From assembly GCF_002356355.1 (NCBI RefSeq), contig NZ_AP018052.1, positions 496,001 to 560,000 of the forward strand: a stretch of 64,000 nucleotides of DNA, written 5' to 3'. A program made the translations under genes and the position numbers. The stretch comes from Thiohalobacter thiocyanaticus. Its GTDB lineage: Bacteria; Pseudomonadota; Gammaproteobacteria; Thiohalobacterales; Thiohalobacteraceae. This document shows, one piece after another, positions 27,078 to 34,458 of the stretch. The first letter of the stretch is position 1. Every line of letters starts with the position of its first letter. The notes under the pieces were generated by a model. That model did no database searches. It saw nothing but the letters and a program-made list of their open reading frames with translations, and was not told where the DNA came from.

Positions 27078-27473
27078 ATGCACAGGCAGCGGCATTCATC
27101 CATTCTGAGCCTGGTCGGCATACTGCTGGCCGGCTGGCTGTCGCTGGCCTGCGGTCACTGCTGGGCCGCGGCCGGCGCGGCGCCGCCGCCGGCCGATCAC
27201 TGCCAGCACATGCAGCCCGAGCCGCAGTCGCCGGAGTGCTGCGAGCACGAGCACCAGGGTGGCCTGTGCCCGGTGGCCGAGGTCGGCAGCGGCCCGATCA
27301 CCGAGCCGGCCGCGCTGATCCCGGCCGGGTTTCCCGATCAGCCGGCCCTGCAACCGGGGGGCGGCGCTGCCTGGCAGGCCTGGCGCGGGCCGCCGCCAAC
27401 CATCGCCGCAGTGCGTACCTGTCCGCCTGCTTCAGCGTCCCTGTATCTGCGGGACTGCGCCTTTCTGGAATAG
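27078..27473 (+). CDS. Small secreted Cys/His-rich protein at the head of the cus operon
   Basis: This 131-residue protein has an N-terminal hydrophobic signal (ILSLVGILLAGWLSLACGHCWA) and then a short Cys/His-rich part, DHCQHMQPEPQSPECCEHEHQGGLCP, and a Pro/Ala-rich tail. I recognise no named family. The Cys/His-rich patch and its place 49 bases before cusC suggest a periplasmic metal-binding accessory protein. The ATG at 27078 gives a proper signal peptide; longer versions extend into the upstream repeat. Confidence 0.6.
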   Translation: MHRQRHSSILSLVGILLAGWLSLACGHCWAAAGAAPPPADHCQHMQPEPQSPECCEHEHQGGLCPVAEVGSGPITEPAALIPAGFPDQPALQPGGGAAWQAWRGPPPTIAAVRTCPPASASLYLRDCAFLE

Positions 27474-27522: not shown

Positions 27523-28773
27523 ATGCGCGCACTACCCTGGATCCTGGCCGGGATCCTCATCCATCCGACTGGCCTTGTCGCGGCACACCTGTCTCTGGCA
27601 GAGGCCGAGGCGCTGGCGCTGATCCATGACCGCCGCGCCGCGGCGTTCGAGGCCGGGGCCCGGGCCCGGCACGAGCAGGCCGTGGCCGCGGCCCAGCTGC
27701 CCGACCCCACCCTGAAGCTGGGCGTGGGCAACCTGCCGGTGGAGTCCTTCGACCGTTCCGACACCCCCATGAGTCAGCTGCAGGTCGGTGTCCAGCAGCG
27801 GTTTCCGCCGGGACGCACCCTGGCCCTGGCCGGACAGCGTCAGGAGCGCCTGGCCGCCGGTATGAGTGCCCGGGCCGAGGCCCGGCGGCGCGAGGTGCTG
27901 CGCGAACTGCGGCAGACCTTCCTGGAAGTCTATTACCAGTCGCGGGCGGCCCGCATCCTGGACGAAACCTATCGTCTGTTCGAGGACCTGGTCGACATCA
28001 CCCGGGCCTACTACGGCGCCGGGCGCAAGAACCAGCAGGATGTGCTGCGTGCCGGGGTGGAGTTGTCCCTGCTGGATGACCGCCGCGAGCGGGTGCGCAC
28101 CCGGCTGGAAACGGCCCGGGCCGAGCTGGCCCGGCTGGTCGGCCCGGAGGCCGCGCAGCGGCCCCTGGCCGAGGACTTCCCCGAGCAGCCGGCCCTGTCC
28201 GTGCCGTCCGTCATGCATCAGGCCCTGGACCGCCATCCGCAGCTGCAGCAGGTAAACCGGGAGATCGAGGCCGGCCGGCTGGAGGTGGACGCGGCCCGCG
28301 AACGGTACAAGCCGGGCTGGAGTCTGGATGTCACCTACGGTGAGCGCAATGGCCGCGAGGCCGACGGCAGCGGCCGCAGCGACCTGCTTTCGGCCATGGT
28401 GATGGTGGATCTGCCGCTGTTCACCGACAAGCGCCAGGACCGGGCGCTGGCGGCGCGCCAGTATGAAGTCACGGCGGTGGAGCTCGAACGCGACGAACTG
28501 CGGCGGGAACTGCGCCAGCAACTCGATACCGCCCTGGCCGAGCGCGAACGGTTGCAGGCACGGCTGGCGCGCTACCGCCAGCGGCTGCTGCCCGAGGCCG
28601 GCCAGCACGCCGAGGCCTCGCTCAAGGCCTATCAGAGCGGGGTGTCGGATTTCACCGCCTTGATGCGGGCCCGGCTGATCGAACTGGACGCGCGGCTGAC
28701 CGCCCTGCGGCTGCGGACCGACCTGGCCCAGACCGCGGCCCGGCTGCGCTACCTGGTGGGAGAGGAATCATGA
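27523..28773 (+). CDS. cusC: TolC-family outer membrane factor CusC-like
   Basis: The 416-residue outer membrane efflux protein has a signal peptide ending near TGLVAAHLS and two repeats of the long coiled helices of the TolC family (AEALALIHDRRAAAFEAGARARHEQAVAAAQ and the C-terminal RLRTDLAQTAARLRYLVGEE). It should form the outer membrane exit of the CusBA pump. It overlaps the next gene by four bases (ATGA). RBS GAGGAG lies before the ATG. Confidence 0.9.
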   Translation: MRALPWILAGILIHPTGLVAAHLSLAEAEALALIHDRRAAAFEAGARARHEQAVAAAQLPDPTLKLGVGNLPVESFDRSDTPMSQLQVGVQQRFPPGRTLALAGQRQERLAAGMSARAEARRREVLRELRQTFLEVYYQSRAARILDETYRLFEDLVDITRAYYGAGRKNQQDVLRAGVELSLLDDRRERVRTRLETARAELARLVGPEAAQRPLAEDFPEQPALSVPSVMHQALDRHPQLQQVNREIEAGRLEVDAARERYKPGWSLDVTYGERNGREADGSGRSDLLSAMVMVDLPLFTDKRQDRALAARQYEVTAVELERDELRRELRQQLDTALAERERLQARLARYRQRLLPEAGQHAEASLKAYQSGVSDFTALMRARLIELDARLTALRLRTDLAQTAARLRYLVGEES

Positions 28774-30269
28774 CCCGGAAGATGCTGACAATAATCTGGA
28801 TGTCCTTGGCGCTCGGTCTCGGCGGCTGCGGCCAGGATCGGGAGTCCGGGGCGGCTGCGGCGGAGGCCGGCGCTGCAGCCGCGGCCGGCACGTCGGCAGG
28901 GAAAAACGGCGAACGCGAGATCCTCTACTGGGTTGCGCCCATGGACCCGAACTACCGCCGCGACCGGCCGGGCAAGTCGCCCATGGGCATGGATCTGGTG
29001 CCCGTCTATGCCGACGAGGCCGGCGACCGGCTCGAGATCGATCCCGTGATGGTGCAGAACCTGGGGGTGCGTACCGCCGAGGTCCAGCGCGAGCGTCTGT
29101 GGCGGCGCATCGATACGGTCGGCTATGTCGACTACAACGAAAACTACATCAGCCACATCCATCTGCGCACCGATGGCTGGATCGACCGGCTGTACGTGAA
29201 GTCCGACGGCGAACGCGTGCAGAAGGGGGATGTGCTGTTCGAGGTCTATTCGCGCGAACTGGTCAACGCCCAGGAGGAATACCTGCAGGCGCTGAATACG
29301 GGCAATGCGGGTCTCAAGCTGGCCTCGCACGAACGGCTGCAGGCGCTGGGCATGAGCCCGGCCCAGATCGATCGGCTGGGCCGTACCCGCAAGGTCGAGC
29401 AGCGCGTGGCCTACCATGCCCGTCAGGACGGCATCGTCGCCGCGCTCAATATCCGCGAAGGCATGTATGTGCAGCCGAAAACCGAGGTGATGACGCTGGC
29501 GGATCTGTCCAGCGTCTGGTTGATGGCGGACGTGTTCGAACGCCAGGCCGACTGGGTCGAGGTCGGCCAGCCGGCCGAGGTGCGCCTGCCCTATCTGCCG
29601 GGCGAGGTATGGGAGGGCGAGGTCGAGTTCGTCTATCCGACCCTGGATGCGAGGACCCATACCCTGAAGGTGAGACTGCGCTTCGATAATCTGCAGGAGC
29701 GGCTCAAGCCGGATATGTACGCGGATGTGCGCATCTTCGCCGGTGCCAGCGAGCCGGGGCTGGTCATCCCGCTCGAGGCGCTGATCCGCACCGGCGAGAA
29801 CGAGCGCGTCATCCTGGCCTTGGGCGAGGGCCGCTTCAGCGCCCGGGAGGTGGTTTCGGGCATCGAATCCGGCGACTGGGTGGAGATCCGACGCGGGCTG
29901 GCGGAGGGTGACCGTGTGGTTACATCCGGCCAGTTCCTGATCGACTCTGAGGCCAGCATCAGGGGGACGTTGAACCGGCTGGATGCGGCCGGGGACGAGT
30001 CGGACAGCGCGCGGCCAGCGATGGCGCAGGAACCCGTTGCCGGCATGGGCACGGTGCAGGAGGTCAAGGCCGACGCCGGCAGGCTCAATATCACCCATCA
30101 GCCGATCGAAGCCCTGGGCTGGCCCGGGATGACCATGGATTTTCGCGTGGCGGAGAGCGTTGATCTCGGCGCCGTGGAGGCCGGCGATGAGGTGCACTTC
30201 GTGCTGACACCGGACGGAGACGGCGGCTATCGTATCGGCGAACTGCATGTCATGGAGGCGCAGCAGTGA
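28770..30269 (+). CDS. cusB: Periplasmic adaptor CusB with fused C-terminal CusF domain
   Basis: The 499-residue adaptor has a lipoprotein-like start (LGLGGCGQ), an N-terminal metal-binding segment YWVAPMDPNYRRDRPGKSPMGMD with the Met residues used by CusB, then lipoyl/barrel-hybrid adaptor domains (to about 410). The last 75 residues form a CusF-type domain with the Cu(I)/Ag(I) ligands seen in ITHQPIEALGWPGMTMDF (His, Trp, Met, Met). In E. coli CusF is a separate chaperone, so here the chaperone is covalently tied to the adaptor. It overlaps cusA by four bases. Confidence 0.93.
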   Translation: MTRKMLTIIWMSLALGLGGCGQDRESGAAAAEAGAAAAAGTSAGKNGEREILYWVAPMDPNYRRDRPGKSPMGMDLVPVYADEAGDRLEIDPVMVQNLGVRTAEVQRERLWRRIDTVGYVDYNENYISHIHLRTDGWIDRLYVKSDGERVQKGDVLFEVYSRELVNAQEEYLQALNTGNAGLKLASHERLQALGMSPAQIDRLGRTRKVEQRVAYHARQDGIVAALNIREGMYVQPKTEVMTLADLSSVWLMADVFERQADWVEVGQPAEVRLPYLPGEVWEGEVEFVYPTLDARTHTLKVRLRFDNLQERLKPDMYADVRIFAGASEPGLVIPLEALIRTGENERVILALGEGRFSAREVVSGIESGDWVEIRRGLAEGDRVVTSGQFLIDSEASIRGTLNRLDAAGDESDSARPAMAQEPVAGMGTVQEVKADAGRLNITHQPIEALGWPGMTMDFRVAESVDLGAVEAGDEVHFVLTPDGDGGYRIGELHVMEAQQ

Positions 30270-33200
30270 TTGAGACGATCATCCGCTGGTCGATCCGCAA
30301 CCGCTTCCTGGTCCTGCTGCTGACCGTCATCCTGGCGGTGTGGGGCGGTTACTCGCTGAAGACCACGCCGCTGGATGCGATCCCGGACCTGTCCGATGTG
30401 CAGGTCATCATCAAGACCAGTTATCCGGGGCAGGCGCCGCAGGTGGTGGAGGACCAGGTGACCTATCCGCTGACCACCACCATGCTGTCGGTGCCGGGCG
30501 CGGTGACGGTGCGGGGATACTCATTCTTCGGCGACTCCTATGTCTATGTGCTGTTCGACGAGGGCACCGACCTGTACTGGGCCCGCTCGCGGGTGCTGGA
30601 ATATCTCTCCCAGGCGCAGGACCGGCTGCCGCCCGGGGTCACGCCGGCACTGGGGCCGGATGCCACCGGCGTGGGCTGGATCTTCCAGTACGCCCTGGTC
30701 GACCGCACGGGCAGACACGATCTGGCGCAGCTGCGCAGTCTGCAGGACTGGTTTCTCAAGTTCGAACTGCAGACCGTGGAGGGCGTGTCCGAGGTCGCCA
30801 CCGTGGGCGGCATGGTCAGACAGTATCAGGTGGTGGTGCATCCCAACCGGCTGCGCGCCTACGGCATCCCGCTGGCGCAGATCAAGCAGGCCATTCAACG
30901 CGGCAACCAGGAGGTCGGCGGCTCGGTCATCGAGATGGCCGAGGCCGAATACATGGTCCGCGCCAACGGCTACATCCAGAGCATCGACGATCTCGAGGGC
31001 ATCCCGGTGGGGGTGAATGCCAACGGCACCCCGGTGCTGCTGGGCGATATCGCCGACATCCGGCTGGGGCCGCAGATGCGCCGCGGCATCGCCGAGCTCG
31101 ACGGCGAGGGTGAGGTGGTCGGCGGTGTTGTCATCATGCGCTGGGGCGGCAATGCCCTGGCCACCATCCAGGCGGTGAAGGCGAAGCTCGATCAGCTCCG
31201 GCCCAGCCTGCCCGAGGGGGTGGAGATCGTCACCACCTATGACCGCTCCGGCCTGATCGAGCGCGCCGTGGCGACGCTCAAGCACAAGCTGGTACAGGAG
31301 TTCCTGATCGTGGCCCTGGTCTGTGCCCTGTTCCTGTTCCATCTGCGTTCGTCGCTGGTGATACTGATCAGCCTGCCGCTGGGGGTGCTGGCCGCCTTCA
31401 TCGTGATGAAGCACCAGGGCATCAACGCCAACATCATGTCGCTGGGCGGCATCGCCATTGCCATCGGCGCCATGGTGGATGCGGCGATCGTGATGATCGA
31501 GAACCTGCACAAGCATCTGGAGCAGGCAAAGGATGCGGCCGTTGACCGCTGGGAGACGGTGGCAAAGGCCGCCGGTGAGGTCGGTCCGCCCCTGTTCTTC
31601 TCGCTGCTGATCATCACCCTGAGCTTTCTGCCGGTGTTCACGCTGCAGGCACAGGAAGGACGGTTGTTCGCGCCGCTGGCCTTCACCAAGACCTATGCCA
31701 TGGCGGCCGCGGCCGGTCTGGCGATCACCCTGGTGCCGGTGCTGATGGGCTACTTCATCCGCGGCCGTATCCTGTCCGAGCAGCGCAACCCGGTGAACCG
31801 GGCGCTGGTGGCGGCCTACCGCCCGGTGATCAATGGCGTGCTGCGGTTTCCCCGTACCGTCCTGGCCGTCACCCTGCTGGTGGCCGTCTCCATGGCCTGG
31901 CCGCTGGCCGGCTGGTGGCCGCTGGACAAGCGTCTGGGTTCGGAATTCATGCCGCCCCTGGACGAGGGTGATCTGCTCTACATGCCGACCACCTTTCCGG
32001 CATTGTCCATCGGCAAGGCGCGCGAACTGCTGCAGCAGACCGACAAGCTGATCGCTTCGGTGCCCGAGGTCGAGCGGGTGTTCGGCAAGATCGGACGCGC
32101 CGAGACCGCGACCGATCCGGCACCGCTGACCATGATCGAGACCACCATCCTGCTCAAACCGCGCGAACAGTGGCGCGCGGGCATGACCCTGGAGGGGATC
32201 AAGCAGGAACTGAACCGGGTCGTGAAGATTCCGAGTCTGGCCAACAGCTGGACATTCCCCATCCAGACCCGCATCGACATGCTCGCCACCGGCATCAAGA
32301 CGCCGGTGGGTGTGAAGGTCGCCGGCCCGGACCTGGACGTGATCCAGGAGGTCGGTGCCGGGATCGAGGCAGTGCTCAAGCAGGTCCCGGGCACGGCCAG
32401 CGCCTTCTCCGAACGGGTGGCGGGGGGGCGCTATGTCACCATCGACATCGACCGCAGTGCGGCCTCGCGCTTCGGGCTGAATATCGCCGACGTGCAGGAC
32501 ATCGTGCGCACCGCCGTCGGCGGCATCAATCTCACCCAGAGCATCGAGGGGCTGGAGCGTTACCCGGTCAATCTGCGCTACCCGCGCGAACTGCGCGATT
32601 CCCTGAGCAGACTGCGCAATCTGCCCATCGTCGCAGCCAACGGCAAACAACTGGCGCTGGGCGATGTGGCCAGCATCAGGGTCGAGGAGGGGCCGGGTAT
32701 GATCAAGAGTGAGAACGCCCGCCCCAACGGCTGGATCTTCGTCGATATCGAGGGGCATGATCTGGGCGGCTACGTCGAGGCCGCGCAGGCCGCCGTGCGC
32801 GAACAGGTCTCACTGCCTCCGGGCTATTCGGTCAGCTGGTCGGGCCAGTACGAATACATGCAGCGGGCGCAGCAGCGTCTGGCCCTGGTGCTGCCGGTGA
32901 CGGCCGGGATCATTGTGCTGCTGCTCTACCTCAATTTCCGCCGCCTGACCGAGGTTGCCATCATCCTCGCCACCCTGCCGCTGGCACTGGTCGGTGGGGT
33001 CTGGCTGTTGTACGGGCTCGGCTACGATCTCAGCGTGGCCGTCGGTGTGGGCTTCATTGCCCTGGCGGGCGTGGCGGTCGAGATCGGGGTGGTGATGCTG
33101 GTCTATCTCAACCTGGCCTGGCGGCGGCGACGTGAACAGGCGCGCGGGGAGGGACGCTCTCCCAACCGCGAGGATCTGCATGCGGCGGTACTGGAAGGCG

Positions 33201-33409
33201 GCCTGATGCGGGTGCGGCCCATCCTGATGACCGTGGCGACCATCATCTTCGGCCTGCTGCCGGTGATGCTGGGCGGCGGCACCGGCGCCGAGGTGATGCA
33301 GCGCATCGCCGCGCCCATGGTCGGCGGCATGGTCAGCGCCACCGTGCTGACGCTGCTGGTGATACCGGCGGTGTTCCTGCTCTGGCGCGGGCGCGGGCTC
33401 GAGCGCTGA
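30266..33409 (+). CDS. cusA: Copper/silver RND efflux pump CusA
   Basis: The 1047-residue inner membrane pump belongs to the heavy-metal RND family. Residues Met573 (LLYMPTT), Met623 (PLTMIET) and Met672 (RIDMLATGIKTPVG) fall at the same numbers as the three-methionine Cu(I)/Ag(I) site of E. coli CusA. The fourth transmembrane segment carries IAIGAMVDAAIVMIENLHK, the monovalent-metal signature. Twelve membrane segments and two large periplasmic loops are evident. Together with cusC and cusB it forms a complete tripartite export system for Cu(I)/Ag(I) from the periplasm. Confidence 0.96.
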   Translation: MIETIIRWSIRNRFLVLLLTVILAVWGGYSLKTTPLDAIPDLSDVQVIIKTSYPGQAPQVVEDQVTYPLTTTMLSVPGAVTVRGYSFFGDSYVYVLFDEGTDLYWARSRVLEYLSQAQDRLPPGVTPALGPDATGVGWIFQYALVDRTGRHDLAQLRSLQDWFLKFELQTVEGVSEVATVGGMVRQYQVVVHPNRLRAYGIPLAQIKQAIQRGNQEVGGSVIEMAEAEYMVRANGYIQSIDDLEGIPVGVNANGTPVLLGDIADIRLGPQMRRGIAELDGEGEVVGGVVIMRWGGNALATIQAVKAKLDQLRPSLPEGVEIVTTYDRSGLIERAVATLKHKLVQEFLIVALVCALFLFHLRSSLVILISLPLGVLAAFIVMKHQGINANIMSLGGIAIAIGAMVDAAIVMIENLHKHLEQAKDAAVDRWETVAKAAGEVGPPLFFSLLIITLSFLPVFTLQAQEGRLFAPLAFTKTYAMAAAAGLAITLVPVLMGYFIRGRILSEQRNPVNRALVAAYRPVINGVLRFPRTVLAVTLLVAVSMAWPLAGWWPLDKRLGSEFMPPLDEGDLLYMPTTFPALSIGKARELLQQTDKLIASVPEVERVFGKIGRAETATDPAPLTMIETTILLKPREQWRAGMTLEGIKQELNRVVKIPSLANSWTFPIQTRIDMLATGIKTPVGVKVAGPDLDVIQEVGAGIEAVLKQVPGTASAFSERVAGGRYVTIDIDRSAASRFGLNIADVQDIVRTAVGGINLTQSIEGLERYPVNLRYPRELRDSLSRLRNLPIVAANGKQLALGDVASIRVEEGPGMIKSENARPNGWIFVDIEGHDLGGYVEAAQAAVREQVSLPPGYSVSWSGQYEYMQRAQQRLALVLPVTAGIIVLLLYLNFRRLTEVAIILATLPLALVGGVWLLYGLGYDLSVAVGVGFIALAGVAVEIGVVMLVYLNLAWRRRREQARGEGRSPNREDLHAAVLEGGLMRVRPILMTVATIIFGLLPVMLGGGTGAEVMQRIAAPMVGGMVSATVLTLLVIPAVFLLWRGRGLER

Positions 33410-33484
33410 TGCAGAGGCTGGTGATACCACCCGTTCTGGTCTGGCTGATGCGGCAGTTCGTCGCCTGTCATCGATTGGCCTGAC

Positions 33485-33515
33485 TTGATGCATGTCATGG
33501 TATGACAGCTATAAT
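33485..33515 (+). promoter_or_regulatory. MerR-type promoter: 19-base spacer with centred dyad
   Basis: TTGATG (33485-33490) and TATAAT (33510-33515) are separated by 19 bases. The perfect dyad TGTCATGGTATGACA (33493-33507) is centred exactly on the middle of the spacer. An over-long spacer with a centred dyad is the hallmark of promoters activated by MerR-family metal sensors such as CueR. The first gene downstream is the CopL-like protein at 33567. No merR-type gene lies in the window. Confidence 0.75.
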
Positions 33516-33566: not shown

Positions 33567-33977
33567 ATGCCGGGCAAGCATCACAAAACCACAGCCTTTC
33601 TGGTGTATCTGCTGGTACTGGTTATCGCCCTGGTGCCCGCCCGCCTTGCCGTTGCCATTCCTGCCGCATTCGATCAGGGGCAGTCGCCGGACAGCGCCTT
33701 GACCGCAGCGCACTGCCAGCAAATGGCAATGCAGCGTGCCGGGAATGAACCTGAGGGACAGGAGCTTGCCGATCCTGATCGAGGGATGGACTGCTGTAAA
33801 ATGGTTTGCGACTGCCCTTCCTGCGATCAATGCCTGCATGCCTCCGGCAGTATCCTGACATTGCCGGGCGGAGTCGGTAATGCCAATCCTGACTTCCACC
33901 CCCTGATGTGCGCGCATACGGAGTCGGCGCTGCGCGGCATCGAACTCTCTCCACCCTATATCCCTCCGCAAATCTGA
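33567..33977 (+). CDS. CopL-like secreted Cys-rich metal-responsive protein
   Basis: The 136-residue protein has a signal segment (TAFLVYLLVLVIALVPARLAVA), an early HCQQM and a dense cysteine patch MDCCKMVCDCPSCDQCLH near residues 80-100. The layout matches small copper-associated CopL / DUF2946-like proteins found at the head of copper resistance loci. Its promoter has MerR-type geometry. The ATG at 33567 is chosen over an upstream TTG because the signal peptide then starts normally. A metal-binding role is inferred from composition. Confidence 0.65.
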   Translation: MPGKHHKTTAFLVYLLVLVIALVPARLAVAIPAAFDQGQSPDSALTAAHCQQMAMQRAGNEPEGQELADPDRGMDCCKMVCDCPSCDQCLHASGSILTLPGGVGNANPDFHPLMCAHTESALRGIELSPPYIPPQI

Positions 33978-34132
33978 TCCCGCACCGGGAGCCACGGTCT
34001 ACCTGACCGCGTTTGCACGTGCCCGCCCGGCGGGGCGGCGGCGAGACATGGCTATACATTCGGGCGCCGGCCGATTCCGGGCCCTTGCCATGAGAGGATT
34101 CTGTCCTAGCCTTCATCTTCCCGGAGACATCC

Positions 34133-34458
34133 ATGAAAGATCGCAAAGTGACGGCAATCGTTCGCAGCCGCTGTCTGGATGCGTGGAGACGGCGGTGATT
34201 GGTCAGGGGGCGCGCGGCATGAGCGTGACACCGATGCAGGGGTTCGGAGAGCACAAAGATTTCTTTCATGAAGATCCGCTGACCCGGCCCGTAAGAGTGG
34301 AGAGATTTACCGCGGATCATCGCAGCACCGCCCTGGTCGATGCCATCGTGCAAACCGCCCGTACAGGCGAAGCGAGCGATGGACCGGTCGCCGTCCTGCC
34401 GGTCACCGGGGTGTTCAGAATTCAGTCGAAGAAACCGGCTGGAGCAGCGGAACTCTGA
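34133..34458 (+). pseudogene. PII-like signalling protein, broken by an apparent one-base deletion
   Basis: The ATG frame reads MKDRKVTAIVRSRCLDA and then hits a stop after 21 codons. The next frame continues without gap as VETAVIGQGARGMSVTPMQGFGEHKDFFHEDP and on to FRIQSKKPAGAAEL, ending at 34458. Together they make a complete 108-residue PII-like protein including the T-loop region and C-terminal signature. The break is at about 34186-34190, where GATGCGTGGAG would be in frame as GATGCGGTGGAG. PII-like genes of this kind occur beside CusA-type pumps. It may be a real frameshift or a sequencing error. Confidence 0.75.

Follow-up and report, generated by a model that had tools for sequence, protein, structure and literature searches.

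A putative operator ahead of a candidate copper leader gene

The dyad TGTCATGGTATGACA (TGTCAT-GGT-ATGACA) looks, judged from its sequence and its relatives, like a real control site in the window, i.e. the whole 64,000-nucleotide stretch analysed here (contig positions 496001-560000). We tentatively interpret it as an operator for a dimeric regulator, placed before a leader gene of CruR/CutF-like layout whose product may itself sense copper, and we give this interpretation chances a little short of even. The first-pass annotation had described TTGATG and TATAAT separated by 19 bp with an exactly centred dyad, and this arrangement was confirmed at 33485-33515, where the dyad occupies the middle of the spacer with 2 bp on each side.

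The genome is a single contig of 3,233,441 bases that was scored 100% complete. The dyad is located between the genes of an RND permease (30266-33409) and a small protein (33567-33977). Among selected ORFs in the surroundings, Pfam and NCBIfam identified copper P-type ATPases, CopB, a CopA-type multicopper oxidase and a CusB-type adaptor that carries a CusF domain, and the dyad stands ahead of a predicted metal-resistance operon. The features are given below, where L010 denotes the contig of the congener (G001) that carries the leader orthologue and L009 the leader paralogue of the same congener.

28770-30269, + strand: CusB-type adaptor with C-terminal CusF domain (annotation)
30266-33409, + strand: CusA/CzcA-family RND permease, ahead of the dyad (annotation)
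33406-33483, + strand: 3' remnant of a membrane-protein gene, intact (155 aa) at L010 4531-4998
33485-33490, + strand: -35-like hexamer TTGATG (sequence), identical at L010 5002-5007
33493-33507, + strand: candidate operator dyad (sequence), 14/15 bases in L010, related dyad 5' of paralogue L009
33510-33515, + strand: -10-like hexamer TATAAT (sequence), matching L010 at 2/6 bases
33567-33977, + strand: small Cys-rich leader-type ORF, predicted exported, 136 aa, CxxC 83-86, PP 133-134 (CruR/CutF-like layout)
34048-34458, + strand: P-II-like gene, next downstream; a porin-like and a cytochrome-c-like gene stand there in L010
35796-37865, + strand: copper-type P-type ATPase of the same island (annotation)

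The order in L010 is permease, intact 155-aa membrane-protein gene, dyad and small-gene orthologue. Relative to this order, the window has lost most of the membrane-protein gene and retains only its 3' end. The GC-rich stretch 3' of the leader (33978-34047) is well conserved with L010 although the downstream genes differ.

Conservation and chance level of the dyad

The block 33484-33509, which comprises the -35 hexamer and the dyad, is identical to L010 at 25 of 26 columns. Within it the dyad shares 14 of its 15 bases, the A to T substitution falling in one L010 arm, and the L010 site reads as a direct repeat TGTCA-N5-TGTCA. Identity elsewhere amounted to 2/6 in the -10 hexamer, 35/57 in the remaining 5' region, 67/80 in the upstream remnant and 314/414 in the coding region. 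As several other 26-column alignment windows, all of them coding or remnant sequence, also score 25-26, the conserved block is exceptional only by comparison with the leader region, and it is kept only somewhat better than the adjoining coding remnant. Since the -10 hexamer agrees at only two positions, the 19-bp geometry of a MerR promoter is not conserved.

Upstream of the paralogue L009, TGTCATGAATTGACA was found about 75 bp ahead of the gene with one mismatch to the window dyad, and when the 141 bp upstream of L009 were shuffled 20,000 times, a match as good arose 18 times. Its flanks, inspected by eye, carry no -35/-10 boxes at 19-bp spacing. The distance from the dyad centre to the ATG is 67 bp in both the window and L010 and approximately 75 bp in L009. 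No dyad was present upstream of the distant homologues L012 and L013. The dyad is thereby found ahead of 3/5 homologues, all from one genus, and the MerR geometry ahead of 1/5. Given the related dyad ahead of the paralogue, the window dyad nevertheless resembles a genuine operator.

Exact copies of the dyad are limited to a single occurrence in the 3.23-Mb genome, and at up to one mismatch there are four places, namely the window site, one inside a CDS start (L004) and two upstream of a FisR-like gene (L005), separated by 49 bp. At up to two mismatches, the window holds three places against 1.72 expected. A further pattern match (L014) was discarded, as it sits within a purF-like gene. A second dyad and conservation were among the points on which the first-pass annotation had let its proposal depend; the exact dyad is solitary in this genome, is largely conserved in L010 and has a relative at L009. 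An RNA hairpin at the dyad was unsupported (z 0.17). A literature search with the exact motif strings found no paper, which does not by itself prove their absence from print.

The strongest rival, which we consider somewhat unlikely, is that a chance dyad fell into an ordinary or weak promoter served by no regulator, so that the similarity with L010 would reflect shared descent only. Sites as good as the one observed appeared in 1/300 dinucleotide shuffles of the window under strict settings, which required matches of 4/6 or better to the -35 and of 5/6 or better to the -10, a spacer of 19 and a perfect, centred dyad whose arms span 6 or more. This figure is optimistic because these settings were fixed after the site was seen. 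With loose settings (3/6, 4/6 and spacer 15-21), 90/300 shuffles matched, which together with the well-kept coding remnant, the other high-scoring alignment windows and the single exact copy in the genome speaks for coincidence. A chance dyad is, however, harder to reconcile with the related dyad that precedes the paralogue at a comparable distance and with the far lower conservation of the bases just downstream. For the operator interpretation we counted this same contrast (25/26 for the -35 and dyad, 35/57 in the remaining 5' region) in favour, together with the related dyad of L009, the similar dyad-to-ATG distances, the leader layout with its CxxC and terminal PP, DUF2946 as the sole Pfam match of L009 and L012, and the lack of a recognisable copper sensor in the tested families; counted against it were the substitution in the L010 arm, the equally well-kept alignment windows elsewhere, the missing dyad ahead of L012 and L013, the lack of any DUF2946 match over the cut-off in G000-G002, the differing downstream genes in the window and L010, the lack of any Pfam match for the window protein and the non-significant window hairpin 3' of its gene (z -0.34).

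MerR-type regulation as a rival explanation

Promoters of the MerR family are defined by spacers of 19-20 bp with a centred palindrome (PMC1526738). Under a MerR-type assignment of this site, a MerR-family regulator would bind the dyad, untwist the 19-bp spacer and activate on metal, its gene being elsewhere or lost. The family hallmark and the exact geometry, rare in the strict shuffles, favour it, and the site shares the 19-bp spacer and the centred palindrome with the CueR/HmrR-type promoters described in PMC1526738. It differs from them in the palindrome itself, in having no cognate gene and in a geometry that is not kept in the congener. By eye, the dyad agrees with none of the MerR, ZntR, CueR or HmrR signals published in passages of PMC1526738; the first-pass annotation had likewise noted a difference from the CueR consensus.

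The earlier statement that no MerR gene lies nearby also held, as none was found in the neighbourhood and the two in the genome are about 1.3 and 1.7 Mb distant. Both were detected by PF13411, and PF00376 identified the same two. Of the NCBIfam models, CarH is the nearest to one of them, and the other shows weak similarity to MlrA, CarH and HspR, all below the cut-off; the short MerR-type gene adjoins ihfA. The complete genome contains no CueR, ZntR or MerR by PF13411/PF00376 and NCBIfam. The MerR assignment was not supported, the only MerR proteins of this genome being the CarH/LitR-like and the short ihfA-linked one. MerR genes are more numerous in the congener, where some at least lie beside mercury-type genes, and the -10 is absent at the congener's dyad locus.

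CarH was rejected as a binder of the dyad. The CarH operator consists of 11-bp direct repeats (PMC8156234), and the dyad does not match it. The CarH/LitR-like gene is itself preceded by tandem 11-bp repeats (L002 1745-1785), which fit this published operator.

The gene content of a genome scored as complete, the unconserved -10 in L010, the palindrome sequence, unlike the signals in those passages of PMC1526738, and the direct repeats ahead of the CarH-like gene all weigh against MerR control of the dyad, which we regard as improbable; the dyad is probably not a site of this kind. The first-pass annotation is thus supported in part: the 19-bp spacer with its centred palindrome is present, the dyad behaves as a conserved operator ahead of a predicted metal-resistance operon and no MerR gene is near it, but the assignment to MerR is not supported.

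Other candidate regulators

The CusR box has ATGACA and TGTCAT halves as in the dyad, in the opposite order. Binding of TGTCA half-sites at the dyad by a CusR/CopR-type two-component regulator would be consistent with these shared halves and with the direct repeat in L010. However, no protein of this genome (G000) passed the CusR/CopR-type model TIGR01387, the best (the response regulator at contig positions 409522-410172) reaching 206.3 bits where 279.2 are required, while two proteins of the congener lie above it, and such a regulator has little probability here. CsoR had no match among the G000 proteins. None of the families tested (MerR, heavy-metal response regulator and CsoR) includes a protein of this genome that is recognisable as a copper sensor.

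Sites with one mismatch to the dyad occur beside SQR/FisR-like genes in G000, G001 and relatives, and a FisR-like sigma-54 activator, whose genes adjoin similar palindromes in this family, could be proposed to bind the dyad. However, the core of these sites is a different 10-bp sequence, TGTCATGACA, which is degenerate in G000 and G001 and lacking from the window dyad, and inspection by eye showed no -24/-12 element in the stretch from the dyad to the ATG. This candidate was rejected as very improbable. In five family genomes (G000, G001, G004, G009 and G003), the palindromes based on TGTCATGACA adjoin a PAS/sigma-54 activator (FisR-like) gene or separate it from a sulfide:quinone-reductase-like gene; they lie at L005 1501-1569 and around 1501 in L036, L034, L043 and L035, and are probably the site of the FisR-like activator.

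The dyad resembles a Zur box. Zur and other Fur-type regulators were rejected, the genome having two Fur-family genes only, and the one whose surroundings were read has no adjoining znu genes. A half-degenerate FNR/ANR-type site, which CTTGATGCATGTCAT looks like, was likewise rejected, as the paralogue has no such sequence upstream.

Anatomy of the leader-type gene

The window protein (136 aa) has an N-terminus that appears hydrophobic by eye, CPSC at 83-86 and PP at 129-130 and 133-134, with copper genes around. The last PP follows the CxxC after 46 residues and lies 2 residues from the C-terminus, as also in L010 and L009, the distance being 4 residues in L012. In 4/5 homologues (window, L010, L009 and L012), about 45 residues lie between a CxxC and a proline motif at the C-terminus; L013 has the PP and no CxxC. 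All five have a tail rich in proline, in which PP comes 2 to 4 residues before the C-terminus, and none of them has a RAPP motif, their ends being PPYIPPQI, PPDIPPQA, PPFEPPPIR, PPLFHPPRVST and ESPPPIV. Pfam gave no match for the window protein, DUF2946 (PF11162) included; this domain was the sole Pfam match of L009 (E 0.31) and L012 (E 5.9), and nothing passed its cut-off in G000-G002. A hairpin 3' of the gene was significant in L010 (z -2.41) and not in the window. A wider search found homologues in 2/56 relatives and 3/369 class genomes, each count including the genome itself, with one in genome contigs and none in plasmids.

CruR of Bordetella pertussis, a DUF2946 leader ORF, has CXXC at 90-93, followed after 45 residues by RAPP at 139-142, and regulates its own operon as copper relieves translation arrest (PMC9426467). 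The window leader shares with it a length of about 140 aa and 45-46 residues between CxxC and the C-terminal proline motif. Its hydrophobic N-terminus and the copper genes around it suggest that, like CruR, it may carry an export signal and head a copper-related operon. It differs in its PP-x-PPQ end instead of RAPP, in staying under the Pfam DUF2946 cut-off and in heading a predicted copper-resistance operon instead of one for a TonB-dependent importer. CutF of Rhodobacter capsulatus, with CxxxC and a proline-rich C-terminus, and CzcI of Cupriavidus belong to the same broad group as CruR (PMC9973294). Like the window leader, which is predicted to be exported, they are small exported proteins before copper or RND efflux genes and have a Cys motif, the proline-rich C-terminus being common to it and CutF, whereas the window has no significant stem-loop 3' of the gene and different downstream genes. 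The likeness to CruR/CutF is thus one of predicted layout, and not of Pfam DUF2946 membership.

Proposed mode of control

In the operator interpretation, the dyad would be a genus-restricted operator for a dimeric DNA-binding regulator, situated about 67 bp ahead of a predicted exported Cys-rich leader, which within a copper-resistance island would head the second copper operon. As the dyad in this genome overlaps a weak promoter with a 19-bp spacer, the regulator would most simply act by blocking it. The copper response as such would most likely come from the leader. In its nascent chain, a CxxC that may bind copper is spaced from the C-terminal proline motif as in CruR and CutF, so copper binding would be expected to alter translation arrest, and with it the expression of the genes behind the leader.

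More broadly, a large copper island without CueR, CusR and CsoR may be run by divergent CruR/CutF-like nascent-chain sensors, themselves transcribed under an undescribed regulator that binds TGTCAT-N3-ATGACA; as a whole we deem this unlikely. If true, the few known copper-sensing leader proteins would gain a divergent branch, found via layout and not by a Pfam model; the case would illustrate a way for a heavy copper island to work without textbook copper sensors and would offer a concrete candidate operator as bait for the regulator. A second small Cys-containing ORF with an internal RGPPP was observed at 27078-27473, ahead of a CusC-like gene and the cusCBA-like genes, and is possibly another leader.
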